A stretch of 64,000 nt of DNA, taken from positions 124,001 through 188,000 of the forward strand of contig NZ_JABFCZ010000004.1 in NCBI RefSeq assembly GCF_014692675.1. The letters are read 5' to 3'. The position numbers and the translations under genes are program-made. The notes beneath the pieces are model-generated. The model saw only the letters and a program-made list of their open reading frames with translations, did not search any database and was not told the origin of the DNA. The stretch comes from Roseibium aggregatum. GTDB taxonomy: Bacteria > Pseudomonadota > Alphaproteobacteria > Rhizobiales > Stappiaceae. Of the stretch, positions 22,786-43,316 are shown piece after piece. The stretch's first letter is position 1. Every line of letters starts with the position of its first letter.

Positions 22786-24720
22786 TCAGTTCCTCGGCAG
22801 CAGAAACCCGTCGAACAGGGCGGCGAGGTCCTGATAGCCGTCGAGGGGCAGCACATGGGCGATGTACTGGTCCGGACGAACGACGACGATGCAGCCCTTG
22901 TCCCGGTCGATGCCGCGCATGTCGTAAATGTCGTTGCCGCTCTTCACGTCGGCGCAGAACATCTTCTCCCGGTCGGTCAGCTGGTACTTGCCCTTCTTCG
23001 GCAGCAGCATCGACGGCATGGCTTCCAGTTCAAGATCGCGGAAGTACTGCTGGAACACGGCACGGACATCGATCGCGCTGTCGAGGTCAGCGCCTGAAGC
23101 CGTGTATTTCACCACCGGCGAGTCCGGGGACTGCTCGAGAAAATCGCACAGGGCGCGGATCTTCGAAGAAGCCCCCGTCGGGTCTTCCCTGTTGCCGAAG
23201 GCAAAGATGCGCCAGCGGCCGTCGGCTTCCACCGTGTGGCCCAGGTGCATCGGCTTGGCATCGCCGAGCCGGATCACCGGCGCGGAATGGAAGCGCGAAC
23301 CGATCTTGAAACCTTCCGCCAGATCCTGGTGTGTGGATTCTCCCGTCAGCACCGACGGCGTGTAGACGGTCGCGACACCCGCCGTATAACGGCCGATCTG
23401 CTGGAAATGCTTCCGGACTTCGGCCGGCTCAAGCCCGTCCGGGTTTTCCGCAGACTTGACCGGCGTGCTCAGCACCCTTGCCCATGCGCTGTCGAAGTCG
23501 ATCAGGTCCTGTGCAATTGCCTTGCGCTCGGCCGAATAGGTGTGCAGCAACTCTGGGCCCGAGCGCCCTTGAAGCACATAGGCGAGTTTCCAGCCGAGAT
23601 TGAACGTGTCCTGCATGGAGACGTTCATGCCCTGACCCATCTTCGGGCTGTGGGTGTGGCAGGCGTCGCCGGCGATGAACACATGCGGCAGGCGGGTGGC
23701 GACCTCTTCGGCCGGCACGTCATCGAACTTGTCGCAAATGCGGTGACCGATTTCATAGACCGACCACCAGGCGGCCTCCTTCACGTCAAGCTTGTAAGGG
23801 CTCATGATCCGGTTGGCGGCGTCGATCAGGTAGTCGAGGGTGATGTTCTTGTTGGAGACACGCTCGTCTTCGGCAAGCTTGTCGAGTTCCACATAGACAC
23901 GGAACAGATAACCGCCCTCGCGCGGAATGATCAGGATGCTGCCCTCATCGGCCGACTGGATCACCGACTTCATGCGGATGTCCGGATAGTCGGTCTCGGC
24001 GAGAATATCCATCACGCCCCAGGCCTGGTGCGCCGCTTCACCCTTGAGCGAACGGCCCATCGCGGTCCGCACGGCGCTGCGCGCGCCGTCGCAGCCGACC
24101 ACGTATTTGGCCTTTACCGTTTCGATCTCGCCCTTGTGGGCGTCATCCACCCGCTCCAGGGTCACGGTGACCGGATAGGCATCGTTGGAGCCGCCGTTGA
24201 CGACCTTCACATCCGTCACCTTGCGCGAGTAGTTCGGCGCCAGGCGGTTCGGCGAATTCAGCATCACGTCCAGATAATTGTCGTGGACGCGTGCCTGGTT
24301 CAGCACCACGTGCGGGAATTCCGACAGTCCGTCCTCGACATCCTGAATGCGATCGCTGCGGGTGATCTTCGTGCTGTCGGCCTCATCCGGCGTCCAGAAG
24401 GTGACTTCGGAAATCCAGCAGGCTTCCTTGGCGACCTTTTCGGCAAAATTGAAGGCCTGGAACATTTCCATCGTCCGGCACGCGATGCCGTCCGCCTGGC
24501 CGTGGGTGAGCGGACCTGCTTTCGGCTCAACGATCCGGGTCTTGATGTCCGGGAACTTGGAGAGCTGGGCGGCCAGCGCCAGGCCGGCCGGGCCGCAGCC
24601 GGCGATCAGCACATCGACCTCGTCGGGAAGCGTGTCCGTGTTCGCCAGATAGGCGGCATCTTCAGTCTGCTTCAGGACTTCCGGATCGCCGGTGGTGAAA
24701 CCGTTCAGATGAAATTGCAT
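22786..24720 (-). CDS. mobA: FAD-dependent 3-hydroxybenzoate 4-monooxygenase-like hydroxylase
   Basis: This 644-residue flavoprotein monooxygenase has the phenol-hydroxylase layout. The FAD motif GCGPAG is at 41-46, and the second FAD motifs CDGARS and IAGDACHTHSPKMGQGMN follow, then a thioredoxin-like C-terminal domain ending in IVVVRPDQYIAHVLPL. The start MQFHLNGF and many segments match 3-hydroxybenzoate 4-hydroxylase (MobA) of Comamonas as I remember it, which makes protocatechuate with NADPH and O2. The ATG at 24720 has a GGAGGAAA box. It is transcribed away from a MarR gene across a strong palindrome. A different hydroxylated aromatic is possible as substrate. Confidence 0.82.
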   Translation of the reverse strand: MQFHLNGFTTGDPEVLKQTEDAAYLANTDTLPDEVDVLIAGCGPAGLALAAQLSKFPDIKTRIVEPKAGPLTHGQADGIACRTMEMFQAFNFAEKVAKEACWISEVTFWTPDEADSTKITRSDRIQDVEDGLSEFPHVVLNQARVHDNYLDVMLNSPNRLAPNYSRKVTDVKVVNGGSNDAYPVTVTLERVDDAHKGEIETVKAKYVVGCDGARSAVRTAMGRSLKGEAAHQAWGVMDILAETDYPDIRMKSVIQSADEGSILIIPREGGYLFRVYVELDKLAEDERVSNKNITLDYLIDAANRIMSPYKLDVKEAAWWSVYEIGHRICDKFDDVPAEEVATRLPHVFIAGDACHTHSPKMGQGMNVSMQDTFNLGWKLAYVLQGRSGPELLHTYSAERKAIAQDLIDFDSAWARVLSTPVKSAENPDGLEPAEVRKHFQQIGRYTAGVATVYTPSVLTGESTHQDLAEGFKIGSRFHSAPVIRLGDAKPMHLGHTVEADGRWRIFAFGNREDPTGASSKIRALCDFLEQSPDSPVVKYTASGADLDSAIDVRAVFQQYFRDLELEAMPSMLLPKKGKYQLTDREKMFCADVKSGNDIYDMRGIDRDKGCIVVVRPDQYIAHVLPLDGYQDLAALFDGFLLPRN

Positions 24721-30824: not shown

Positions 30825-31586
30825 ATGAACGCTCTTGGCAACAAGACCTGCATCATCACCGGCGGGGCCGGAAGCCTCGGGCTTGCGGCCGCGAAGCTGT
30901 TCCTGGCCGAAGGCGCCAGGGTAATGCTGGTCGATCTGAACCCGGATACCCTTGCCGATGCGAAAGCCGAACTCGGCGGCGGCGGCAATGTCGATACCTG
31001 CAGCGCCGACGTATCCAGCGAAACCGATGTTCAGCGCTATGTGGAGGCGACCTGCACCCGCTTCGGCAATATCGACGTCCTGTTCTCCAATGCCGGAAAT
31101 TTCGGAACGGTCGCACCGATCGAGGACTATCCGACCGGGATCTTCGACGCGGTCTACGCTGTCCATGTCCGCGGCGCGTTTTTGGCCGCAAAACATGCGG
31201 TGCCGCACATGAACGACGGCGGCTCGATCGTCATCACCTCGTCCGTCGCAGGCACCCGCGGCGATCCGGGCGTCTATGCCTATATCACCGCGAAACATGC
31301 CCAGACCGGACTGATGCGCTGTCTCGCCAAGGAGCTGGCCCCGCGCCGGATCCGGGTCAACACCATCCATCCGGGTCCGATCGACAACGCATTCCAGCTC
31401 TCCGTGGAAGAAGGTTTGGCTAAGGAGATCGGACGGGACGGAACAGAATTCTTCAACGAGATCATTCCGCTCGGCCGCCACGGCAGCCCCGACGAAATTG
31501 CACGTTCCGTACTTTACCTTGCATCCGACCAGAGCAGCTTTACAACCGGCGCCATGCTGATGGTCGATGGAGGAATGAGTGCATGA
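30825..31586 (+). CDS. Short-chain dehydrogenase/reductase
   Basis: This 253-residue classical SDR has the nucleotide motif TGGAGSLGLA (12-21), NAG at SNAGNFG, the catalytic S-Y-K set (ITSSVAG, YAYITAKHA) and a C-terminal MLMVDGGMSA. The acidic D after beta-2 (MLVDLN) favours NAD+. It would oxidise a hydroxyl group of an aromatic side chain, judging from the neighbours. The stop overlaps the MarR start (ATGA). Confidence 0.88.
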   Translation: MNALGNKTCIITGGAGSLGLAAAKLFLAEGARVMLVDLNPDTLADAKAELGGGGNVDTCSADVSSETDVQRYVEATCTRFGNIDVLFSNAGNFGTVAPIEDYPTGIFDAVYAVHVRGAFLAAKHAVPHMNDGGSIVITSSVAGTRGDPGVYAYITAKHAQTGLMRCLAKELAPRRIRVNTIHPGPIDNAFQLSVEEGLAKEIGRDGTEFFNEIIPLGRHGSPDEIARSVLYLASDQSSFTTGAMLMVDGGMSA

Positions 31587-32062
31587 GCAAAACCAAGGGG
31601 CAACCTGAAGCCTCCCCGTCTGAGGAAGAGGGAAAAATCCGCCTGGGCCCGCTGGAAAACTTCATCGGCTTCAACCTGCGTCTGGCGCAGGATGCCTCGT
31701 TCCAGACCTATGCCCAGCACGTCGGCAAGCCCCATCTGAGACCCGGCCGATTCGCCGCCATGATGTTGATCCACCAGAACCCCGGTCTCACCCAGATGGA
31801 GCTGAGCCGGGCGATCGCGCGCGACAAGTCTTCCGTGACCCCCCTGGTCCAGACCCTTCAGCGCGAGGGCCTGATCACCCGGACACCGTCGGAAATCGAC
31901 CGGCGCCGGGTCACCCTGCGGCTGACCGACGCCGGGGAAGAGGTGCTCAAGTCGCTGCTGGCCCATGCCGAGGAACATGACAGGAAACTCGATGCCATCG
32001 TCGGCGACCGCAAGGCCGAGCTTCTCGAGCTGCTCAAGGACATCGTCAAACACCTGACCTGA
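31583..32062 (+). CDS. MarR-family transcriptional regulator
   Basis: This 159-residue regulator has the MarR winged helix (LTQMELSRAIARDKSSVTPLVQTLQREGLI), the wing ITRTPSEIDRRRVTLRLT and a C-terminal dimer helix. It is translated with the SDR and precedes the aldehyde dehydrogenase. It probably senses an aromatic substrate and acts at the GTTTGA palindrome before the operon. Confidence 0.88.
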   Translation: MSKTKGQPEASPSEEEGKIRLGPLENFIGFNLRLAQDASFQTYAQHVGKPHLRPGRFAAMMLIHQNPGLTQMELSRAIARDKSSVTPLVQTLQREGLITRTPSEIDRRRVTLRLTDAGEEVLKSLLAHAEEHDRKLDAIVGDRKAELLELLKDIVKHLT

Positions 32063-32115: not shown

Positions 32116-33562
32116 ATGAAAATCGACATGCTCATCAACGGGGAGCCGGTTGGCGCAACCGGCGGAGCGACCTTCACCCGGAACGATCCGGTAACCGGCG
32201 CGCCCGCCACCACCGCACCGGCGGCCACCGTCGCCGACGCCATCGCCGCGGTCGATGCAGCCGCAGCCGCCTTCCCGGCCTGGTCCAGGATCGGCCCGAA
32301 CGAACGCCGCACCCTGCTCCTGAAAGCCTCCGAGGCACTGGCGGCAAAGAAGGACGAGTTCATGCGGCTCGTCGTTGAGGAAACCGGGTCGACCGCGATC
32401 TGGGGCGGCTTCAACGTCATGCTCGCCAGCCAGATGCTGCGCGAAGCCGCGTCCATGACAACCCAGGTCGGCGGTGAGGTTATCCCGTCCGACAAGCCCG
32501 GCTCGCTTGCCATGGGCATCCGCCAGCCGGCCGGTGTCGTTCTCGGCATGGCGCCTTGGAACGCCCCCGTCATCCTCGGCACCCGTGCGATCGCCATGCC
32601 GCTCGCCTGCGGCAACACGGTCGTCCTGAAAGCCTCCGAGCTCTGCCCGGGCATCCACCGCCTCATCGGCGAATGCATGAACGAGGCCGGTCTGCCGAAG
32701 GGCGTGGTCAATGTCGTCACCAATGCCCCGGAAGACGCGCCGCAGATCGTGGAAGCGCTGATTGCGCACCCGGCCGTCAAGCGCGTCAACTTCACCGGCT
32801 CCACCCGCGTCGGCAGGATCATCGGCGAACTCGCCGGTCGCCACCTGAAGCCCGCGCTGCTGGAATTGGGCGGCAAGAACCCGATGCTGGTTCTGGACGA
32901 TGCCGATATCGATGCCGCGGTCAATGCCGCCGCCTTCGGCTGCTACATGAACCAGGGGCAGATTCTGCATGTCCACCGAGCGGATCATCGTCGATGAAAA
33001 GGTCGCCGACGAATTCGTCTCGAAGCTCGCCGCCAAGGCCTCCGGCCTGCCGGCCGGCAACCCGCGTGAACATGTCGTCCTCGGTTCGCTGATCGACCTG
33101 GCACCGGCCGAACGCATGGACGCCTTCCTGGAAGACGCCAAGGCCAAGGGCGCCAAGGTTCTCGCCGGCGGCGGCCGTGACGGCACCATCGTTCAGGCGA
33201 CCGTCGTCGACAACGTCTCGAAGGACATGCGCATCTACAACGAAGAGTCCTTCGGTCCGGTCAAACCGGTCATCCGCGTGAAGTCGACCGAGGAAGCCAT
33301 CGCCGTTGCCAATGACACCGAATACGGCCTGTCGGCTGCGGTCTTCGGCAAGGACATCATGCGCGCGATGGAGGTCGCCAAGCAGATCCATTCCGGCATC
33401 TGCCACATCAACGGCCCGACCGTTGCCGACGAGGCGCAGATGCCGTTCGGCGGCGTCGGCGCATCCGGTTACGGCCGGTTCGGCGGCAAGGCGGCCATCG
33501 ACCAGTTCACGGACCTGCGCTGGATCACCATCGAGGATCCGCATCAGCATTATCCGTTCTGA
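32116..33562 (+). pseudogene. Aromatic aldehyde dehydrogenase, single-base frameshift at the catalytic cysteine
   Basis: Two frames (32116-32997 and 32969-33562) together give one NAD(P)-dependent aldehyde dehydrogenase of about 481 residues, similar to vanillin/salicylaldehyde dehydrogenases. The first frame has PWNAP, the FTGSTRVG loop and the catalytic glutamate in LELGGKNP. It then reads NQGQI-LHVHR, where NQGQI-CMSTER is expected. One extra base in ATTC at 32962-32965 causes this. Everything after is intact (EESFGPV, GYGRFGGKA). Either the gene is freshly broken or the sequence has an error. As written, no catalytic cysteine is translated in frame. Confidence 0.88.
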
Positions 33563-33690: not shown

Positions 33691-34605
33691 ATGAAAATTC
33701 CCAACCGAGTCCGCCTGCGTCATATCCGCTGTTTCCTGAGCGTGGCCGAGCACGGCTCGGTGACCAAGGCCGCGGCCGCACTCAACACCGTGCAGCCGGC
33801 ACTTTCGCGCACCTTGCGCGAACTGGAGGCGGAACTGGGCCAGCCGCTGTTCGAGCGCACCGCCAAGGGGCTTGTCCCGACCCAGGCCGGAGAAACGCTG
33901 CGCCGTCACGCGCTCACCGGCATGTCCCAGATCGAGCGCGGCATTCAACTGGCAAGCGGCGACGAGCAGCAGCACACGGTTTCGGTCGGCATGCTGCCGA
34001 ATGTGTCGCGAACCCTCGTCCCCAAGGCCGTTTCCAGGTTCAAGGAGATCGCTCCGGACATCGACGTCCGGCTCTATTGGGCCAATGTCGCGGAGATCGT
34101 CGACCGGCTGCGCCAGGGCGATATCGATTGCATGGTCGGCCGTCTGCCGTCACTGGAACACATGGCAGGCGTCAGTTTCGAACACCTCTATTCCGAACCC
34201 CTCATCTTTGTTGCGCGCAAGGGACATCCGCTCGCCGACGTACCCAATCTCACGCTAGACGATATCGATCGGGGACTCGTGATCGTGCCGCAGCCGAATA
34301 CGATCATCCGGCGGGAACTTGGCAAGTTCACCACCGGGCGGGGCCTGGCCGAGTTCTCCAACAAGATCGAAACGGTTTCCTTCGAATTCACCAGGGCGTT
34401 TCTGGCCGCCCAGGATGCCGTCGCCTGCATGCCGTTGGGGTCTGTACGCCAGGAGCTCGCCGACGGCCGGCTTGTCGTCCTCGACATTCACGGCGAGGAA
34501 CTGACCGGGTCGGTCGGCCTGTCGTTCATGACCGGCCGCGATCTCTCGCCTGCGGCCGCACAACTGGTCGAGGTCCTGCGCGAGGAAGCCCGCGCCTACG
34601 CCTAG
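33691..34605 (+). CDS. LysR-family regulator (PcaQ/GbpR-like)
   Basis: This 304-residue LysR regulator has its helix-turn-helix near residues 20-45 (SVTKAAAALNTVQPALSRTLRELE) and a type-2 substrate domain. The general look is that of PcaQ-like regulators. It stands alone after a terminator and points toward the sulfatase gene on the same strand, with an inverted repeat in the gap. That makes the sulfatase-TRAP genes its probable target, although LysR regulators are more often divergent from their targets. Confidence 0.88.
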   Translation: MKIPNRVRLRHIRCFLSVAEHGSVTKAAAALNTVQPALSRTLRELEAELGQPLFERTAKGLVPTQAGETLRRHALTGMSQIERGIQLASGDEQQHTVSVGMLPNVSRTLVPKAVSRFKEIAPDIDVRLYWANVAEIVDRLRQGDIDCMVGRLPSLEHMAGVSFEHLYSEPLIFVARKGHPLADVPNLTLDDIDRGLVIVPQPNTIIRRELGKFTTGRGLAEFSNKIETVSFEFTRAFLAAQDAVACMPLGSVRQELADGRLVVLDIHGEELTGSVGLSFMTGRDLSPAAAQLVEVLREEARAYA

Positions 34606-34620
34606 ACCCAGGACAAGGCC

Positions 34621-34636
34621 ATAACATATTTGTTAT
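34621..34636. promoter_or_regulatory. Candidate LysR operator ATAAC-N6-GTTAT
   Basis: A short A+T-rich inverted repeat lies 15 bases after the LysR stop and about 200 bases before the sulfatase start. The rest of the gap 34606-34839 holds no gene. Confidence 0.4.
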
Positions 34637-34839
34637 ATTGTGGACGATATCTCTATTATCGCGTCCGGTCATCAGCGGTTAGGTTGATTTCAAAGGCTCA
34701 AAGAAGCCTCAGGGAGGAAAAGCGGCATATCAGGTAAATCCGGCGATCACGCGCCCGGATCCTATTGTTCCGGCTGATTTTCTTCCCTTTTCAGTCTGAG
34801 GCATGGCCGTCTTTGCACGCCTCAAAACCAGGAGAGATC

Positions 34840-36528
34840 ATGCGGAAGACCAGGAACATTCTGTTCATCATGTTCGACCAGCTGCGCTGGGATTATCTGA
34901 GTTGTTATGGTCATCCGCATCTGAAGACGCCGAATATCGACCGGCTGGCGCAAAAGGGCGTGCGCTTCGACAGGGCCTATATCCAGTCACCGCTGTGCGG
35001 CCCGTCGCGCATGTCCACCTATACCGGCCGCTACGTCCACAGCCACGGCGCCTCCTGGAACCAGGTGCCGCTGAAGGTCGGCGAACGGACCATGGGCGAC
35101 TACCTGCGCGACAACGGCATGGGCTGCTGGCTGGTCGGCAAGACCCACATGGAAGCGGATGCGGAAGGCATGCGCCGCCTCGGCCTGGAACCCGACAGCG
35201 TCATCGGCGCCCGCGTCGCCGAATGCGGCTTCGACATCTACGAGCGCGATGACGGAATGCGCCCGGAAGGCCCGGACGGCCTTTACGATCCGGGCGGCGC
35301 GCTCAAGTACAACGAATATCTCCGCGAAAAGGGCTATGACGGCGACAACCCGTGGCACGACTATGCCAACTCCGGGATCGATGACGGCGGCAATGTCCTG
35401 TCCGGATGGTTCCTGAAGAATTCCGACGAACCGGCCAACATCGCCGAGCAGGACAGCGAAACGCCCTACCTGACCCGGCGCGGCATGGAGTTCATCGAGG
35501 CTCAGGGCGACCAGCCCTGGTGCTGTCACCTGTCCTACATCAAGCCGCACTGGCCCTATATCGTGCCGGCGCCCTATCACGACATGTACGGGCCCGAAGA
35601 CTTCCTCCCCGCCGTCCGGAGCCAGGAGGAATTCGACAACGCCCATCCCGTCTTCAAGGGCTTCATGATGGCGCCGGTCGGCCGGGCGTTCTCGCGCGAC
35701 GACATCCGCGACAAGGTGCTGAAAGCCTACATGGGCCTGATCAAGCAATGCGACGATCAGATGGGCGTGCTGTTCGACTGGCTGAAAAAGACCGGGCGGA
35801 TGGATGACACGATGATCGTGGTCACCTCCGATCACGGCGATTTCCTCGGCGATCACTGGCTCGGCGAGAAGACCTTCTTCCAGGACGCCTCCACCAGGGT
35901 GCCGCTGATCATCTATGACCCGTCGGCCGAAGCCGACGCTACCCGCGGAACCGTGTGCGACGAGCTGGTCGAATGCATCGACCTGCTGCCGACCTTTCTT
36001 CAAGCCGCCGGCGGCGACGTGGCCGCCGTCGATCACATCCTGGAAGGCAAGTCGCTGATGCCGGTCCTGCATGGCACGCAGGAGGGGCCGCTCAGGGACC
36101 ACGTCATCTGTGAATATGATTATTCCGCAAGTCCGCTCGCCGGAAAGCTCGGCCTCGACCCGGCGGAGGCGCGCATGTTCATGGTCGCAAACAAGGACTG
36201 GAAACTGATCCACTTCGAAGGCGGCTTCCGGCCCATGCTGTTCGATCTCAAGAACGACCCCGGCGAACTGGTCGACCTTGGAGAAAGCGAACAACTGCAG
36301 CCGGTGATCGACGAACTCTACGACAAGCTGTTTGCCTGGGCGCGTCGGCCGTCCCAGCGCACGACCATGTCCAGAAGTCAATTCATCGGCGCGCGCGGCA
36401 AGGGCTCCGCCAAGGGGGTCCTGATCGGCATCGTCGACGAAGGCGACGTTCCATCGCCGATATCCGCCAACTATGTGGGGCGGAAGGCCAGGGACCGCAG
36501 GGAGACAATGAAACAGGCCGGCGAATAA
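34840..36528 (+). CDS. Cytoplasmic formylglycine-type sulfatase / phosphonate monoester hydrolase
   Basis: This 562-residue alkaline-phosphatase-superfamily enzyme has the sulfatase active-site motif C53-G-P-S-R57, whose cysteine becomes formylglycine. The metal site includes D13-Q14 (FDQLRWD) and SDHGDFLGDHWL. There is no signal peptide (start MRKTRNILFIMFDQ), so it acts on substrate already inside the cell. ATG 34840 has an AGGAGAG box, and the longer upstream frame is not supported. The next genes encode a TAXI-TRAP importer. No formylglycine-generating enzyme is in the window. A phosphonate ester is the alternative substrate. Confidence 0.85.
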   Translation: MRKTRNILFIMFDQLRWDYLSCYGHPHLKTPNIDRLAQKGVRFDRAYIQSPLCGPSRMSTYTGRYVHSHGASWNQVPLKVGERTMGDYLRDNGMGCWLVGKTHMEADAEGMRRLGLEPDSVIGARVAECGFDIYERDDGMRPEGPDGLYDPGGALKYNEYLREKGYDGDNPWHDYANSGIDDGGNVLSGWFLKNSDEPANIAEQDSETPYLTRRGMEFIEAQGDQPWCCHLSYIKPHWPYIVPAPYHDMYGPEDFLPAVRSQEEFDNAHPVFKGFMMAPVGRAFSRDDIRDKVLKAYMGLIKQCDDQMGVLFDWLKKTGRMDDTMIVVTSDHGDFLGDHWLGEKTFFQDASTRVPLIIYDPSAEADATRGTVCDELVECIDLLPTFLQAAGGDVAAVDHILEGKSLMPVLHGTQEGPLRDHVICEYDYSASPLAGKLGLDPAEARMFMVANKDWKLIHFEGGFRPMLFDLKNDPGELVDLGESEQLQPVIDELYDKLFAWARRPSQRTTMSRSQFIGARGKGSAKGVLIGIVDEGDVPSPISANYVGRKARDRRETMKQAGE

Positions 36529-36578
36529 ACACCGGCGTCAATCAGAGAATAAAAACCGTTCATCATTGGGAGGAAAAC

Positions 36579-37640
36579 ATGATGACATTGACCAGACGGG
36601 CCTTCGGCGCTGTTTCCTGCGCTGCCATGATTGCGCTCGGAAGCGGTTCGGCCCTTGCGCAGGCCAACCTGACCGCCGAAACCTCAAGCCCGGGGAACTC
36701 ACCGCACCTTTCGATCATGCATCTGGCCGACGTGCTCGGTCGCGACGGCATCGCCAATCTGCAGGTCCAGGAAGGCCAGACCCTCACCAACTCGATCCAA
36801 AACGTGGCCGAGGGCAAGACCGATATCGCGGCCCTGCCGATCGTGCTGCATTTCCTCCTGGAAAAGGGCCGCGGGCCCTACTCGAAACAGGGCGAAAACG
36901 GTGCCAAGCTCGCTGCCAATCTTCGCGCGCTTTACCCCTATAACGCCGGCGCCTACGGCCTGATTGCCCATACCAGCTCGAATATCGAGAAATGGACCGA
37001 CCTGAAGAACAAGACGGTCTTCAACGGACCGCCGCGCGGCGCTGCCCTCGTCAATGCCCGCCAGGCGATCCAGATGGCCGCCGGTTACAAGGACGGCGAG
37101 GACTACAAGGGAATGCAGGCCAACTGGGGTCAGCTTGCCAACATCCTGGTCGACGGATCGGCTGATGCATTCGTTGTGCCCCTGACCTTCCCGTCCGAAC
37201 GCGTCACCATCGCCCTGTCGGCCGGCAACGTGAACATCGTCTCCACGCCGAAGGAAATCTTTGAGGGCGAGGCCTTTCAGAGACTGCTCAAGGCGCCGGG
37301 CAACGTGCCGATCGTCGTGAAGTGGGAAAACATGGGCTACGGCGACGACCAGGGCGTGACCCTGATCTCTGAAGACGGAACCTTCCGCGGCATGGGCACG
37401 GCGTTTGCCGATGTCGTCAACAAGGACATGAGCAACGAGATGGCCAAGGCGATCACCGCCTCGTACATCAAGTCGATGGAAGAGCTGAAGGCCAAGGCGC
37501 CCTATGCGAAGAACATCAACATCGGTGTCCTGGATGCAGCGGATTCCGGTTTCTGCGGAGCCTTGTCGCTGAAGTACCATCCCGGCGCCGTCGAGGCCTG
37601 GGAAGAGGCCGGATACACGGTTCCGGACTGCGCGAAATAA
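36579..37640 (+). CDS. TAXI-family TRAP transporter solute receptor
   Basis: This 353-residue periplasmic protein has a Sec leader ending near ALAQA (residue 28) and the TAXI-family fold (AETSSPGNSPHLSIMHLA; a KTVFNGPPRGAA segment). It delivers an unknown anion to the fused permease encoded next. A GGGAGG box precedes the start. It is 50 bases behind the sulfatase and followed by a terminator-like hairpin. Confidence 0.9.
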   Translation: MMTLTRRAFGAVSCAAMIALGSGSALAQANLTAETSSPGNSPHLSIMHLADVLGRDGIANLQVQEGQTLTNSIQNVAEGKTDIAALPIVLHFLLEKGRGPYSKQGENGAKLAANLRALYPYNAGAYGLIAHTSSNIEKWTDLKNKTVFNGPPRGAALVNARQAIQMAAGYKDGEDYKGMQANWGQLANILVDGSADAFVVPLTFPSERVTIALSAGNVNIVSTPKEIFEGEAFQRLLKAPGNVPIVVKWENMGYGDDQGVTLISEDGTFRGMGTAFADVVNKDMSNEMAKAITASYIKSMEELKAKAPYAKNINIGVLDAADSGFCGALSLKYHPGAVEAWEEAGYTVPDCAK

Positions 37641-37651
37641 CGACAACAGGC

Positions 37652-37679
37652 GGCGGGGCGTAAAATCCCCGCCCGTTTT
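37652..37679 (+). terminator. Hairpin between TAXI receptor and TRAP permease
   Basis: GGCGGGG pairs with CCCCGCC around an eight-base loop, followed by CGTTTT. It would give partial termination and a higher receptor-to-permease ratio. Confidence 0.7.
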
Positions 37680-37759
37680 CCTAAATGATTTACCGGGCGA
37701 CGACTGCGCCCGACACACGCGCGTCTTAACGCACAGGCGGACGGCGACAAGGCCCGGAC

Positions 37760-40126
37760 ATGAACGCTGAAACGGAACATTCGCAACCCTTGTTTGCCCG
37801 GCCGGACCGGTGGGCGGCCATGCTCGGCATGGTGCTCGTCGTCATCGGCCTGATGAACACCATCCCGTCCATCCCCGGACTGGACGCCTTCTTCCAGAAC
37901 CTGACCGGCAATCCGAATTTCGCGATCCGCAAGTACCCTTACGAATTCCTCTATCCGCTCGCCTTCGTCATCATGATGACGGTGGTCGCGCTGAAGCATT
38001 CCTTCTATCGCAGCGCCATCAACCGCAGCCCGCTTTACAAGACCCTGTCGCTTGGAATGGACATCGCCCTGGTGGCAACCGCCATCATCATTGCCCTGTC
38101 CTATCTGATCGAGATCGATTCCGTCTGCCTGATCGACCAGTTCACCGGCGAACGCGCCGAGCTGATCGCAAAGGCGCTGAGGGAAGAAAAGGAATTCGCC
38201 GAACTCTACGGCCTCCCCGTTCCGACCAGCGTCGACGATCCGGCCTGCATCAACAATCTCGGCATCTGGATCTTCGCCGTCGTCGGCGGCGCGATCACGG
38301 TGTTCCTTGCCTATAACGTCAGGGTCTGGGGCTTCCCGCTGGTCGCGGTCGCCATCGCCATCGCCGCCTACACCATGATCACCGTTCTGATCTGGTACGT
38401 GTTCGGCGCCCATGACATGAACAAGTACCTGATCACCAAGCTGGGCGGCGAACCCAGGTTGCTGATGGACGGGCGGCCCAATGTCGAGGACATCCTGGTC
38501 AACAATGCCCAAGGGCTACTCGGCCGCTTCATGGGCATCCTCTTGAACACCGTGTTCCCCTATATCGTGCTCGGCTCCCTGTTCGGCATTTCCGCAGGCG
38601 GCCAGTCGCTGATCAAGATCGCCTTCCTGTGCACGCGGCGCTTACGCGGCGGGCCGGCCCATGCGGCCATCGTCTCCTCGGCCATGTTCGGCACCATTTC
38701 CGGCGGTCCGGTCGTCAACGTGCTCTCCACCGGCGTCCTGACCATACCGATGATGCTGAAGCGCGGTTTCTCCAAGGTGTTTGCCGGCGGTGTCGAGGCC
38801 GCGGCTTCGAGCGGCGGGCAGATCATGCCACCCGTGATGGGGGTCGCCGCCTTCGTGCTTTCGGCGATGACGGTCGTACCCTATCGGGAAGTGATCATCG
38901 CCGCCGTCATCCCGGCACTCGCCTATTTCGGCTGCCTGTTCCTGTCCGTCGTCTTCCAGGCGCGCAAGCAGGGTATTCAGGCGGTTGGCGAACTGACCGC
39001 CGACATGAAGCTGACCCGCGACGACTGGATCCACCTGATCATGATCGTGGCGCCGATCCTCCTGATCCTGTTTCTGCTGGTCACGCCGAAGGAAGCGATC
39101 GGCTGCGGCCCCATCGCCTCGCTGATCGGTATCGAGACCATCGTGCAGAACGGCGTCTGCCGGGCGGAGCACCTGCCCTGGCTGTTCCTGCTGGTCCAGA
39201 ATTCCGCGGGCGACGCAGGATCCGCGGGCTGGTGGGCAACGGCCCTGCTGGCCGTCCTGTTCTTCCTCGACAAGGACATCCGCAAGCAGCCATCGAAGCT
39301 GCTCAAGGCCTTTTCCGATGCGGGCATTCTGATCAGCACGCTCTACCTGATGTTCCTGGCCGTGTCGGTGATCGACTTCTGCCTGAACTTCACAGGCCTG
39401 TCCGGCTTCATCGCCCGCGACATGCTGAACGTGCTGCGCAGCTTCGGACCCGAACTCCAGTCCGGTGGCGTGTTCCTGTTCCTGGCGCTCGCCGTGACGA
39501 TGGTGCTGGCAATCCTGCTCGGCATGGGCATGCCGACGGTACCGGCCTATATCAACGTGGCGCTGCTGATGGGACCGATGATCGTCGGGCTGGGCATCGC
39601 CACCTTCACCGCCCACATGTTCATCTTCTTCTTTGCGGTGGCATCGGCCATCACGCCACCGGTCGCGGTGGCGGCCTTCGCCGCCGCCTCGATAACGCGG
39701 GCGGATCCCATGGCGACGGGCTTTTCGGCGGTGCGGTCAGGCGTCGTGATGTTCGTGCTGCCGTTCATCTTCGCCTTTTATCCGGAACTGCTGCTGATCG
39801 ATGCCGCCAAGCTCGACCCCGGCGCGACCGCCGGCAGCGCGCAATTCATTGCGGGCTACACATCCGGGATCGACTGGGGAGACCTGACCTATGTTCTCGC
39901 CCGGCTGGTGGTTTCGCTCTATTTCCTGTCCAGCGCACTGGCCCGCTTCGATGCGCGGAAGATGGGAGGCGCCGAGGTCGTCCTGCGCATGGGACTGGCC
40001 GTGCTCGTCATGATGCACGATCCGATGATTGCACTGCCGGCCCTGGCCGTCGCGGCTCTCTATCTCGGCTGGCACTGGATTTCGGCGCGGTCGCAGCAGA
40101 GGCTAGTGCATCCTGCGTTCAAGTGA
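37760..40126 (+). CDS. Fused TRAP transporter permease (4TM + 12TM)
   Basis: This 788-residue inner-membrane protein joins the small (DctQ-like) and large (DctM-like) TRAP permease parts, the arrangement used by TAXI systems. Large-subunit hallmarks are GTISGGPVVNVLSTG, the GVEAAASSGGQIMPPVMG loop and MGMPTVPAYINVALLMGP. It is driven by an ion gradient together with the TAXI receptor before it. The length and motifs look intact. Confidence 0.93.
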   Translation: MNAETEHSQPLFARPDRWAAMLGMVLVVIGLMNTIPSIPGLDAFFQNLTGNPNFAIRKYPYEFLYPLAFVIMMTVVALKHSFYRSAINRSPLYKTLSLGMDIALVATAIIIALSYLIEIDSVCLIDQFTGERAELIAKALREEKEFAELYGLPVPTSVDDPACINNLGIWIFAVVGGAITVFLAYNVRVWGFPLVAVAIAIAAYTMITVLIWYVFGAHDMNKYLITKLGGEPRLLMDGRPNVEDILVNNAQGLLGRFMGILLNTVFPYIVLGSLFGISAGGQSLIKIAFLCTRRLRGGPAHAAIVSSAMFGTISGGPVVNVLSTGVLTIPMMLKRGFSKVFAGGVEAAASSGGQIMPPVMGVAAFVLSAMTVVPYREVIIAAVIPALAYFGCLFLSVVFQARKQGIQAVGELTADMKLTRDDWIHLIMIVAPILLILFLLVTPKEAIGCGPIASLIGIETIVQNGVCRAEHLPWLFLLVQNSAGDAGSAGWWATALLAVLFFLDKDIRKQPSKLLKAFSDAGILISTLYLMFLAVSVIDFCLNFTGLSGFIARDMLNVLRSFGPELQSGGVFLFLALAVTMVLAILLGMGMPTVPAYINVALLMGPMIVGLGIATFTAHMFIFFFAVASAITPPVAVAAFAAASITRADPMATGFSAVRSGVVMFVLPFIFAFYPELLLIDAAKLDPGATAGSAQFIAGYTSGIDWGDLTYVLARLVVSLYFLSSALARFDARKMGGAEVVLRMGLAVLVMMHDPMIALPALAVAALYLGWHWISARSQQRLVHPAFK

Positions 40127-40713: not shown

Positions 40714-42207
40714 TTATCCGATCCGGGCCGCGATGCTCTTGGTCTTGCAATAGGATTTCAGACCTTCGATCCCCTTTTCCCGGCCGAAACCGGACTTCTT
40801 GTTGCCGCCGAAGGGCACCTCGACACCGCCGGCGAAATACTCATTGATGAAGATCTGACCGGCGTCGATCCTGCGCGCGAGCCGGTTCGCCTTTGAAAAA
40901 TCGCTCGAATAGATGCCGGCAACAAGCCCGTACTGGCAATCATTGGCAAGCTCCAGCGCATGATCCGCATCGTCGGCCACCTGCACGGTCAGCACCGGAC
41001 CGAAGATTTCCTCCCGGACCACCTCGTCGCTTGGCGCGGCCCTGTCGATGATGGTCGGCTCAAAGAACCAGCCCTTGCCGGTATCCGGATCCGTGGTGAC
41101 AGATCCTCCGGTCGCAATCTCCGCCCCCGCCGAACGTGCGCGGTCGACAAAGCCGGCGATCTTTTCCAGATGGGAGGCCGAATTCACCGGCCCCACATCC
41201 GGATTGCGCAGGCCATGACCGAGTCTCAAAGGTCTTGTCCGCCTGACCAGTTCCTCGACAAAATCGTCATGGATGCCTCGTTCGATCACGAGCCGCGAAC
41301 CGGCGGAACAGATCTGGCCGGCATTTTCGAAAATCGCGCCCATCACCCCTTCCATCGCCTTCTCGCGATCGCAATCGTCCAGGACCACCACGGGCGATTT
41401 CCCGCCCAGCTCCAGAACGACCCGTGTGACCTCGCGCGCAGCCGCGCTCATCACCGCCTGGCCGGTCGCAACGGAGCCAGTGAAGGTGATGTGATCCACG
41501 TCCGGATGGCTCGTCAGCGGCGCGCCGACCTCTGCACCTGTCCCGGTCACCACATTGCATACCCCGTCCGGCAGCCCGGCCTTGGTGAGGATCTCCGCCA
41601 GAAGCAGGGCGGTAAACGGCGTCTGCTCCGCGGGCTTTGCCACCACCGTGCAGCCGGCGGCGAGCGCCGGCGCCAGCCCGCGTGCGGTTGTCGAGATCGG
41701 GTAGTTCCACGGAATGATATGGGCCGTCACGCCCACCGGCTCATGGATGGAATATCCCAGATAGTCCGGGCCCAGCGGAAAGCTGTCGCCCTGGAGCTTG
41801 TCACAGGCTCCTGCGTAATATTCAAAGCAGCGCGCCGCGCCGCGCACGTCTCCCAGCGCTTCGTTGAGCGGCTTGCCGCTGTCGAGGCTTTCGGCCACGG
41901 CGAGCCTTGCCATGTTTTCCAGGATCAGACCGGACGCCCGCTGCAAGATGCGCGTGCGTTCCACCGGCGCCATGTCGCGCCATACATTTTCAAAGGCACG
42001 GCGTGCGCTTTCGACCGCCTGATCCACATCCGCCTTCGTTCCGGCGGCAAACGAGGCAAAGGCCTCGCCCCTTCCCGGATCGAAACTTTCCATGCTCTGG
42101 TTGTGGGACGGTCTGGAGAATTGACCGTCGATGAAGTGGCCGTCGGGAAGCCCTTCGAGCGTCCCGGTCTTGAGGACTTCGGCGGCGAGCGTTTCTGCTG
42201 TCGACAT
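40714..42207 (-). CDS. NAD(P)-dependent aldehyde dehydrogenase (betaine/amino-aldehyde type)
   Basis: This 497-residue complete ALDH has PWNYP, the catalytic glutamate in LELGGKSP, the catalytic cysteine in NAGQICSAGSR, and EEIFGPV. Similarity is to betaine-aldehyde and amino-aldehyde dehydrogenases. ATG 42207 is chosen because it falls two bases after the upstream stop and gives a normal N-terminus. It is co-transcribed with the enolase-superfamily gene and may oxidise an aldehyde made by the GMC or amine oxidase encoded downstream of the MocR gene. Confidence 0.92.
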   Translation of the reverse strand: MSTAETLAAEVLKTGTLEGLPDGHFIDGQFSRPSHNQSMESFDPGRGEAFASFAAGTKADVDQAVESARRAFENVWRDMAPVERTRILQRASGLILENMARLAVAESLDSGKPLNEALGDVRGAARCFEYYAGACDKLQGDSFPLGPDYLGYSIHEPVGVTAHIIPWNYPISTTARGLAPALAAGCTVVAKPAEQTPFTALLLAEILTKAGLPDGVCNVVTGTGAEVGAPLTSHPDVDHITFTGSVATGQAVMSAAAREVTRVVLELGGKSPVVVLDDCDREKAMEGVMGAIFENAGQICSAGSRLVIERGIHDDFVEELVRRTRPLRLGHGLRNPDVGPVNSASHLEKIAGFVDRARSAGAEIATGGSVTTDPDTGKGWFFEPTIIDRAAPSDEVVREEIFGPVLTVQVADDADHALELANDCQYGLVAGIYSSDFSKANRLARRIDAGQIFINEYFAGGVEVPFGGNKKSGFGREKGIEGLKSYCKTKSIAARIG

Positions 42208-42209
42208 GA

Positions 42210-43316
42210 TCACGCTTCGACCTCGCTGATCTGATAGGCGGATTTCGCCAGCCATTCCGGAGCGACCTCCACACCCCAGCCGGGTGCGTCGGTGACCGTG
42301 ACATGACCGTCTTCAACCTCATAAGGTTCGGAGGCGAACAGGCCGTACTGCCAAGGGTAGTAATCCCCCTCCTCGATGGAGAATTCCAGATATTTGCCCG
42401 GGTTCGGAATGGCGCGCAGCAGATGCATGGTGAAGAGCGTCACCAGCGACAGGTTGGCCGAATGCGGCGTGCAGGGAATGCCGGCCTGATGCGCCATCTG
42501 CGCCACCTTCATGGACCGCAGCATGCCGCCGAGATAACACACGTCCGGCTGGACGATATCGACCACGCGTCCGTCGACCATCCGTTGCCAGTCGACCAGC
42601 GAACAGTCCTGCTCGCCGCCGGCCACGTCGATGTTGAGCGCATCGCTCACCTGTTTGGTCTGGTCATAATGCCAGTAGGGGCAGGGTTCCTCGTAGTGGG
42701 AAATGCCGTTGTCCTCAAGGAACCTTCCGGTCTCGATCGCCTTTGCCGGCGAATAGCAGGAATTGGCGTCGACCATGAGCTGGGTGTCGTCGGCGAACGC
42801 CCCGCGCATGGCCGGAACGATCGCCTCGGTACGGCCCGGCCATTCGTCCTGGTCGTGGCCGCATTCGGCACCGATGCGGAACTTGAAGGCGGTGAAGCCG
42901 CACTCGTTCTGCAGCCTTTTCAGCCGGTCCACCTCGTCATCCGGCGTGATGTCCCGCTTCATGGACGAACCGTAGGCGCGCACCTTGCCCGGCGTACCGC
43001 CGAGCAATTCGCACACCGGCTTGCCTTCCAGCTTGCCGCGCAGATCGAACAGCGCGGTATCGAGCCCGCCCATGGCTCGGCGCAGGTAGGACCCGGGGAA
43101 CTTGTGCTCCTTCTCCGGAATGATTTCCATCAGGTGGGCGATATCGAAAGCGTCCTGCCCGAGCGCATAGGGCGCGACCTGCCGGTGGACCACCTGCGCC
43201 GTGATATCGGCGTAGTAAGGCGCCACCTGCCCCCAGCCCTGAGCGCCCGTGTCCGAGGTCACACGGACAAAGCAGACGAACGGGTCGGTGAAGGTTTCTA
43301 TCGAACGAATTTTCAT
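42210..43316 (-). CDS. Enolase-superfamily enzyme (mandelate racemase/muconate lactonising type)
   Basis: This 368-residue TIM-barrel enzyme has the superfamily metal ligands in MVDANS, YEEP and GGEQD, a basic FKFRIG motif on strand 2 and a catalytic histidine in TPHSAN. These enzymes take a proton alpha to a carboxylate to racemise or dehydrate acids (sugar acids, hydroxyproline derivatives and others). The substrate cannot be read from sequence. Its gene is divergent from MocR across an AATTGG repeat pair. ATG 43316 gives the usual MKIRSIE start. Confidence 0.88.

Follow-up and report, generated by a model that had tools for sequence, protein, structure and literature searches.

A LysR-sulfatase-TAXI-TRAP gene module of Roseibium aggregatum that probably imports an intact organosulfate for cleavage in the cytoplasm

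Introduction

What does a TAXI-type TRAP transporter carry into the cell when the gene of a sulfatase lacking a signal peptide lies directly before it? We address this question for a window of 64,000 nucleotides from Roseibium aggregatum (assembly GCF_014692675.1, contig NZ_JABFCZ010000004.1, positions 124,001 to 188,000 of the forward strand; positions given below count from the first letter of the window). In this window, four codirectional genes on the + strand encode a PcaQ-like LysR regulator (33691..34605, 304 amino acids (aa)), a predicted Cys-type arylsulfatase of the SpAS2 subfamily (34840..36528, 562 aa), a divergent TAXI-type solute receptor (36579..37640, 353 aa) and a fused TRAP permease (37760..40126, 788 aa), separated by intergenic gaps of 234, 50 and 119 bases. 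A sequence-only reading of the window had described this layout, and had proposed that an intact sulfate ester, or else a phosphonate ester, is imported and then cleaved in the cytoplasm. All four genes lie where that reading placed them, and their families are confirmed by Pfam and NCBIfam.

We consider it probable that the module imports an intact organosulfate that is cleaved in the cytoplasm. This part of the earlier proposal is supported by synteny, by the linkage between a clade of TAXI receptors and sulfatases and by a conserved operator footprint, whereas the phosphonate alternative is not; the substrate can be narrowed to a sulfated aromatic acid, and for the combined reading with such a substrate under a PcaQ-like LysR we put the chances slightly better than even. 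Papers are cited below by their PMC numbers.

The sulfatase and its active site

The sulfatase matches PF00884 at 155.8 bits and contains the sequence CGPSR, in which Cys53 (codon 34996-34998) fits the formylglycine motif C-x-[PS]-x-R. Its longest reading frame opens at TTG 34765, a start without counterpart in relatives, and the ATG at 34840 fits the relatives' start; from this ATG the protein opens with the catalytic core at once (MRKTRNILFIMFDQLRW), and no signal peptide is seen by eye. Both the motif and the missing signal peptide had been pointed out before and are borne out. The closest solved relative is PDB 4upl (921.9 bits, 392/553 identities, 71%), which we take to be SpAS2 of Silicibacter (Ruegeria) pomeroyi. 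The second solved relative, PDB 4upi (629.4 bits), is SpAS1 (PMC5870055).

Arylsulfatases are separated from phosphonate monoester hydrolases (PMH) by K101/H103 in SpAS1 versus Y105/T107 in RlPMH (PMC5488252). The GKTHM stretch of the window sulfatase aligns with K101 and H103 of SpAS1, and by these residues the enzyme is, as judged from sequence, a member of the arylsulfatase branch of the arylsulfatase/PMH group. The phosphonate option of the sequence-only reading, in which a PMH-like enzyme would cleave an imported phosphonate ester or phosphodiester, is not supported here and is in our opinion very unlikely. It draws on membership of the same superfamily and on scores of 304.7 bits with the PehA model and 209.6 bits with the PMH of R. 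leguminosarum; the PehA score is far below the cut-off of 900, and the hydrolase signature, Tyr together with Thr or Asp, is replaced by K101/H103.

SpAS2 turns over 4-nitrophenyl sulfate, and the accessible passage of the same paper tabulates for it kcat 4.2e2 and kcat/Km 2.1e5, the substrate and units of which stand outside that passage (PMC12917725). When choline sulfate was offered to SpAS1 or SpAS2, no choline was detected (PMC5870055); the choline sulfatase model TIGR03417 gives the window enzyme 214.1 bits, below the cut-off of 433.45, and we rejected choline sulfate as the substrate on these two grounds. Arylsulfatase activity is established only for the 71% relative, by analogy with which it may be expected of the window enzyme.

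Conservation of the module and linkage of its receptor to sulfatases

For the comparison of gene order we used the best 80 of 359 sulfatase loci in named genomes, with genes called by codon usage; a cruder caller, which missed the sulfatase in 19/80 loci, served for leads only. The full set of four genes, in unchanged order, was found in 12/80 loci, and L008 and L019 are complete as far as their contigs reach (L and G are our numbers for loci and genomes, respectively). Maritimibacter alkaliphilus HTCC2654 (L018) and Zhengella mangrovi (L004) are among the carriers of the module. The module occurs also on two Pseudosulfitobacter plasmids and in G071 and G002 (L098, L099), and its gene order thus recurs in other Alphaproteobacteria, across several families and plasmids. 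A tree was made of 90 sulfatases, in which the rows with the module, 19 in number, are spread over several branches and interleaved with transporter-less rows; a label test gave 2 changes against a shuffled mean of 7.0, in a comparison made only with eight other labelled rows. SpAS2-type sulfatases lie directly behind a different TAXI-TRAP pair in L030, L035, L038 and L039 (25-28% and 31-32% identity), and in L032 the sulfatase follows a TRAP operon with a large permease that scores over the TIGR00786 cut-off. L099 has, in addition, another TAXI-like receptor gene of more distant kinship (13004), which follows the module immediately and lies on the other strand.

The two functions might nevertheless be chance neighbours, the TAXI-TRAP system carrying an unrelated carboxylate: 66/80 sulfatase loci are without the window receptor and permease, including the Ruegeria loci, none of which among the best 80 has a homologue of either (the pomeroyi locus is outside this list). 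We therefore approached the linkage from the other side, using the receptor sequence alone as query to avoid circularity. Seven receptor matches were obtained in 87 genomes of the family at E 1e-60, and a sulfatase, belonging to one of two subfamilies, lies within 1.5 kb in 7/7. The background consisted of the 30 best-scoring family TAXI loci of the same size (mostly one receptor group, 25/30 being at least 61% identical to L131), with a sulfatase within 1.5 kb in 0/30 and none in flanks of about 9.5 kb at 20 of these places, and of 40 more diverse TAXI loci, hand-picked among the lower-scoring matches listed (23-70% identity to L131), with a sulfatase in flanks of about 5 kb in 0/40. The corresponding p values, 1e-7 and, with the 30 and 40 background loci pooled, 4e-10, overstate the linkage, the seven loci coming from related genomes and representing only two types of gene context.

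Beyond the family, a search of 397 genomes of the order (E 1e-50) gave matches in three genomes, including that of the window. The other two hold three receptor loci, in which no sulfatase was found within the short locus; in G459 (L126) one follows 2.4 kb downstream, and the two receptor loci of G130, on contigs of 9.4 and 11.5 kb, are both without one. In six plasmid records, three receptors at least 48% identical to the query accompany a sulfatase (H41, H42, H45), and the 33% receptor H46 has no accompanying sulfatase. Two receptors on plasmids of Leisingera thetidis are without a sulfatase within 9 kb, and both plasmids carry a related sulfatase elsewhere (H100, H102), H102 being about 15 kb away. 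In these two loci (L094, L095), genes for a metallo-beta-lactamase (MBL)-fold hydrolase and an amidohydrolase flank the related TAXI-TRAP genes in place of the sulfatase.

Receptors of 48-54% identity have other sulfatases as partners in L096, L100-L103 and L126. In L100-L103, the TAXI-TRAP genes (52-53% identity) have a sulfatase on each side, the two belonging to different subfamilies (CGPSR, CMPNR), and are accompanied by a glutathione S-transferase-like gene; the sulfatase of L096 resembles the second of the two sulfatases at about 47%. SulP anion transporter genes were observed beside the TAXI-TRAP genes in L096 (12479-15802, followed by the sulfatase) and L097 (13063-14835); a role in sulfate exit or exchange is possible. 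Given a gene order conserved across families and plasmids, the receptor-first linkage of 7/7 versus 0/30 and 0/40, and the pairing with several sulfatase subfamilies, we judge chance neighbourhood to be unlikely.

The receptor and the permease

TAXI receptors are widespread, and few of their ligands are known (PMC11574862). The window receptor, whose N terminus looks by eye like a signal peptide, matches PF16868 (52.7 bits, over the cut-off of 27) and scores 50.2 bits with TIGR02122 TRAP_TAXI, below the cut-off of 84.35, so that we regard it as a divergent TAXI receptor. Its AlphaFold2 model (mean predicted local distance difference test score, pLDDT, 85.0) matches six solved TAXI entries at Z 24.1-26.4 with a root-mean-square deviation of 3.4-3.9 over 293-295 aligned residues, the next entry being at 15.6; the receptor is, as modelled, of TAXI fold. 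The permease passes TIGR02123 (333.3 bits, cut-off 320.65) and matches PF06808, and the earlier description as a complete TAXI receptor with a fused TRAP permease holds good.

Glutamate binding by VcGluP requires Tyr45 and Gln93 (PMC11574862), both of which are kept in L131, a canonical TAXI of the same genome (462.5 bits to 8s4j). The corresponding columns hold Pro42 and Pro87 in P0002, proline in all six aligned rows of the receptor clade, and proline and serine in the other TAXI of L030, in an alignment of 17-25% identity (17-21% between the clade rows and L131) in which single columns are uncertain. We rejected a glutamate receptor, as Tyr45 and Gln93 are not kept. A TAXI-TRAP system for o-phthalate has been reported (PMC11574862, PMC13040137), and o-phthalate is an aromatic di-anion which, by analogy, would be shaped like a sulfated hydroxybenzoate.

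Regulation of the module

The regulator combines PF00126 and PF03466, and its best NCBIfam match is TF_pcaQ (TIGR02424) at 289.1 bits, below the cut-off of 303.8; five LysR orthologues of the module score 243.1-289.1 bits with this model and match no other family at E 1e-40. Behind its gene lies the dyad ATAACATATTTGTTAT (34621..34636), a likely LysR recognition site, followed at fixed spacing by a second footprint element, CTATT (34653..34657, + strand), a possible LysR activation site. The repeat ATAAC-N6-GTTAT occurs as a single copy in the 64 kb, at the dyad, against an expectation of 0.00 from 100 dinucleotide shuffles. When the region behind the LysR gene was aligned in 18 loci, an ungapped block was obtained in which both the dyad and the TATT element contain invariant positions; the pattern derived from it is present in 18/18 module loci (mean 0.0/18 in shuffled regions), a count made on the same 18 sequences from which the pattern was derived. 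The PcaQ site of Sinorhizobium meliloti, ATAaccgggggatTAT, has the geometry ATA-N10-TAT (PMC5002191), which is independent of our pattern; the window dyad shows this geometry, as do 12/18 module loci in all, with a shuffled mean of 0.46. The dedicated control that had been suggested from the LysR gene and the repeat is strengthened by these results.

These data bear also on the question of whether the module serves to scavenge sulfur, in which case a broad range of sulfate esters would be imported for sulfate and not for carbon. Such a role would suit the SpAS enzymes, which are models of catalytic promiscuity and whose group is promiscuous on model substrates (PMC12917725, PMC5870055, PMC5488252). 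It would suit also the finding that the sulfatase adjoins several transporter types, namely two kinds of TAXI-TRAP and, in L032, a TRAP with the TIGR00786 permease. We give it little probability, because the LysR is PcaQ-like and not CysB-like (289.1 versus 59.6 bits), because many relatives are marine and sulfate is, as is generally known, plentiful in sea water, and because the SulP genes mentioned above may rather move released sulfate.

Neighbouring genes and the nature of the substrate

The window contains a gene for a 3-hydroxybenzoate hydroxylase-like flavoprotein of MobA type (22786..24720, - strand, 644 aa; 869.1 bits to PDB 2dkh); the distance is 9.0 kb to the LysR gene and 10.1 kb to that of the sulfatase. 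In L098, a MobA-type gene forms a tight row together with the module, an aldehyde dehydrogenase gene and two MarR genes, and in L010 (Sulfitobacter) such a gene immediately follows that of the permease, on the other strand. Other aromatic genes were found upstream of the module in L017 (homogentisate dioxygenase and fumarylacetoacetase, HmgA/FahA) and downstream in L028 (3-oxoadipyl-CoA thiolase, PcaF, and phenylacetyl-CoA epoxidase, PaaA/PaaC). Sulfatases without the module adjoin homogentisate genes in L015 and a hydroxyphenylpropionate hydroxylase-like gene in L073. Among ten loci with related receptors, pcaF, pcaG and pcaH are found in L096, and thiolases of about 42% identity in L102 and L103. 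Taken together, the aromatic neighbours of module loci are suggestive. The MobA-like gene of G002 (C1:4991205-4993111), which is included in the 3/3 family genomes counted below, consists of two pieces that overlap and has an internal TGA.

The genes behind the module invite a different proposal, namely that the same mechanism handles a sulfated sugar acid or another aliphatic acid sulfate, the pathway being completed by an MR/MLE (enolase-superfamily) dehydratase and an aldehyde dehydrogenase. Genes of both kinds follow the permease (42210-43316 and 40714-42213, respectively), the module has an MR/MLE homologue as its neighbour in L005, L006 and L098, and an altronate dehydratase is near L085. 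The best sugar-acid dehydratase model, however, gives the MR/MLE protein only 138.2 of 750 bits, both genes run opposite to the module, SpAS2 acts on aryl sulfates, and a different substrate is suggested by the PcaQ-like control and by some of the aromatic neighbours; an aliphatic substrate is in our estimate rather improbable.

Upstream of the module are a MarR regulator gene (31583..32062, + strand), which accompanies the module in L098 too, and, directly before the module, an aldehyde dehydrogenase gene (32116..33562, + strand) split into two overlapping frames (32116-32997 and 32969-33562). The relative in L098 is one frame of 481 aa, and the split reflects a frameshift or an assembly error. 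Farther away, at 45-22582, a long run of genes resembles, by eye from the translations, the cluster of an uptake hydrogenase together with genes for its maturation.

Observations that weigh against the proposal

Several results count against the proposal and are gathered here. Four loci with receptors of 48-54% identity are without a sulfatase (L094, L095, L127, L128). The search for aromatic genes in 10 kb flanks gave matches in 5/18 module loci, 3/66 other sulfatase loci (p 0.01) and 1/20 background TAXI regions (p 0.07), using ten reference proteins drawn from these same loci and leaving out the window MobA-type gene, which lies outside the 10 kb flank. One of the five module loci is counted only for an FAD oxidoreductase of unsure role (4/18 when it is left aside), most module loci (13/18) have no aromatic gene within 10 kb, and the kinds of gene vary among genomes.

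Co-occurrence with MobA gives a similar picture. It holds for 3/3 family genomes with the module versus 18/84 others (p 0.013), for 3/7 versus 18/80 when all seven family genomes of the receptor clade are taken (p 0.22), and for 8/12 versus 13/30 in named genomes (p 0.15), where three of the 13 carry the other TAXI pair; we have dropped MobA as a general partner of the module, because significance is lost over the seven clade genomes and in the named genomes. As for the fate of the aromatic product, paired pcaGH genes were not found in the genome. Three PF00775 matches are on three contigs, unpaired, and are nearest to catechol-type dioxygenase models, at scores below cut-off, and 3,4-cleavage of protocatechuate was discarded on this account as the end route in this genome. 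LigB-type dioxygenases are represented in the genome by six family matches, and the best of these shares the contig with the module and lies about 89 kb past it.

What speaks most strongly against an active sulfatase is the missing maturation enzyme. The sequence-only reading had named the lack of any formylglycine-generating enzyme (FGE) as grounds for abandoning it, and this lack is literally what we found: the genome (5.66 Mb, completeness 100) contains no PF03781 match, and its single match to the anaerobic maturase model TIGR03942 has 108 bits against a cut-off of 349.45. Two Cys-type sulfatases are nonetheless encoded there, the window enzyme and the choline sulfatase BetC (C35, 872.1 bits). 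PF03781 is without match also in the module genomes G087, G091 and G096 and in the plasmid record W02, with some match in 16/20 records searched. Five PF03781 loci were inspected for the FGE cysteine motif; it is present in three and absent in one, and a neighbouring sulfatase gene had been picked in one. Formylglycine in enzymes of this type is formed in Escherichia coli by an unknown endogenous enzyme (PMC5870055), and in view of this we read the missing FGE as a pointer to another, third maturation route rather than to a dead enzyme, and not as a decisive disproof.

Proposed mechanism

In the mechanism that we propose, the periplasmic TAXI receptor would bind a small acid that bears a sulfate ester, and the fused permease would carry this ester in whole; the most likely candidates are sulfated phenolic carboxylates, for example 3-(sulfooxy)benzoate or a related compound. 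The cytoplasmic SpAS2-type sulfatase, with formylglycine made from Cys53, would release sulfate and the free phenolic acid, which may then enter an aromatic pathway; the nearby MobA-type hydroxylase would convert 3-hydroxybenzoate to protocatechuate. The PcaQ-like LysR would activate the sulfatase-TAXI-TRAP genes from the dyad and CTATT behind its own gene. The gene order and its conservation, the subfamily and signature residues of the sulfatase, the fold of the receptor, the footprint and the neighbouring genes are shown by the data, and the substrate, the direction of transport, the inducer and the maturation of the sulfatase are the parts of this proposal that we infer. A more far-reaching version, in which a whole TAXI-TRAP clade is dedicated to sulfated phenolic acids under PcaQ-like control, the SpAS enzymes thereby have their native role, and a third maturase exists besides FGE and the anaerobic one, is tentative, and we would sooner doubt it than rely on it.

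Significance and comparison with known systems

Marine plants and algae contain sulfated phenolics, and the module, if it works as proposed, would add to the routes by which sulfur and aromatic carbon are cycled in the sea. It would also provide one substrate class both for the SpAS enzymes and for the poorly known TAXI transporters, and the missing FGE makes this genome a place to seek an unknown maturase. Among the matches listed in the literature searched, we found, in the accessible parts, no description of a TAXI-TRAP system importing an intact sulfate ester or of this module, and the accessible literature on the SpAS enzymes names no native substrate for them.

The window sulfatase shares with SpAS2 and SpAS1 (PDB 4upl and 4upi) the K/H signature, and its identity to SpAS2 extends over 553 positions; the motif is CGSSR in SpAS2 and CGPSR in the window. 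The choline sulfatase BetC belongs to the same superfamily and is likewise of Cys type, and the window sulfatase is 29% identical to the BetC of its own genome. Import of an intact sulfate ester is a principle known for other importers. In the ats system of Pseudomonas, a cytoplasmic arylsulfatase goes with dedicated ester uptake, as proposed here, but the importer is of ABC type and the regulator is another one. The o-phthalate TAXI-TRAP system of denitrifying bacteria (Azoarcus) resembles that of the window in having a TAXI receptor and a single fused permease, and adjoins aromatic catabolic genes; the accessible text mentions no sulfatase, and the two systems are set side by side here by description (PMC13040137). 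The closest parallel in regulation is PcaQ-pcaMNVWX of Sinorhizobium meliloti, where a LysR of PcaQ kind likewise lies next to an uptake system and acts through an ATA-N10-TAT operator (PMC5002191); that transporter is of ABC type and the one in the window is of TRAP type, and the window LysR scores under the PcaQ cut-off.

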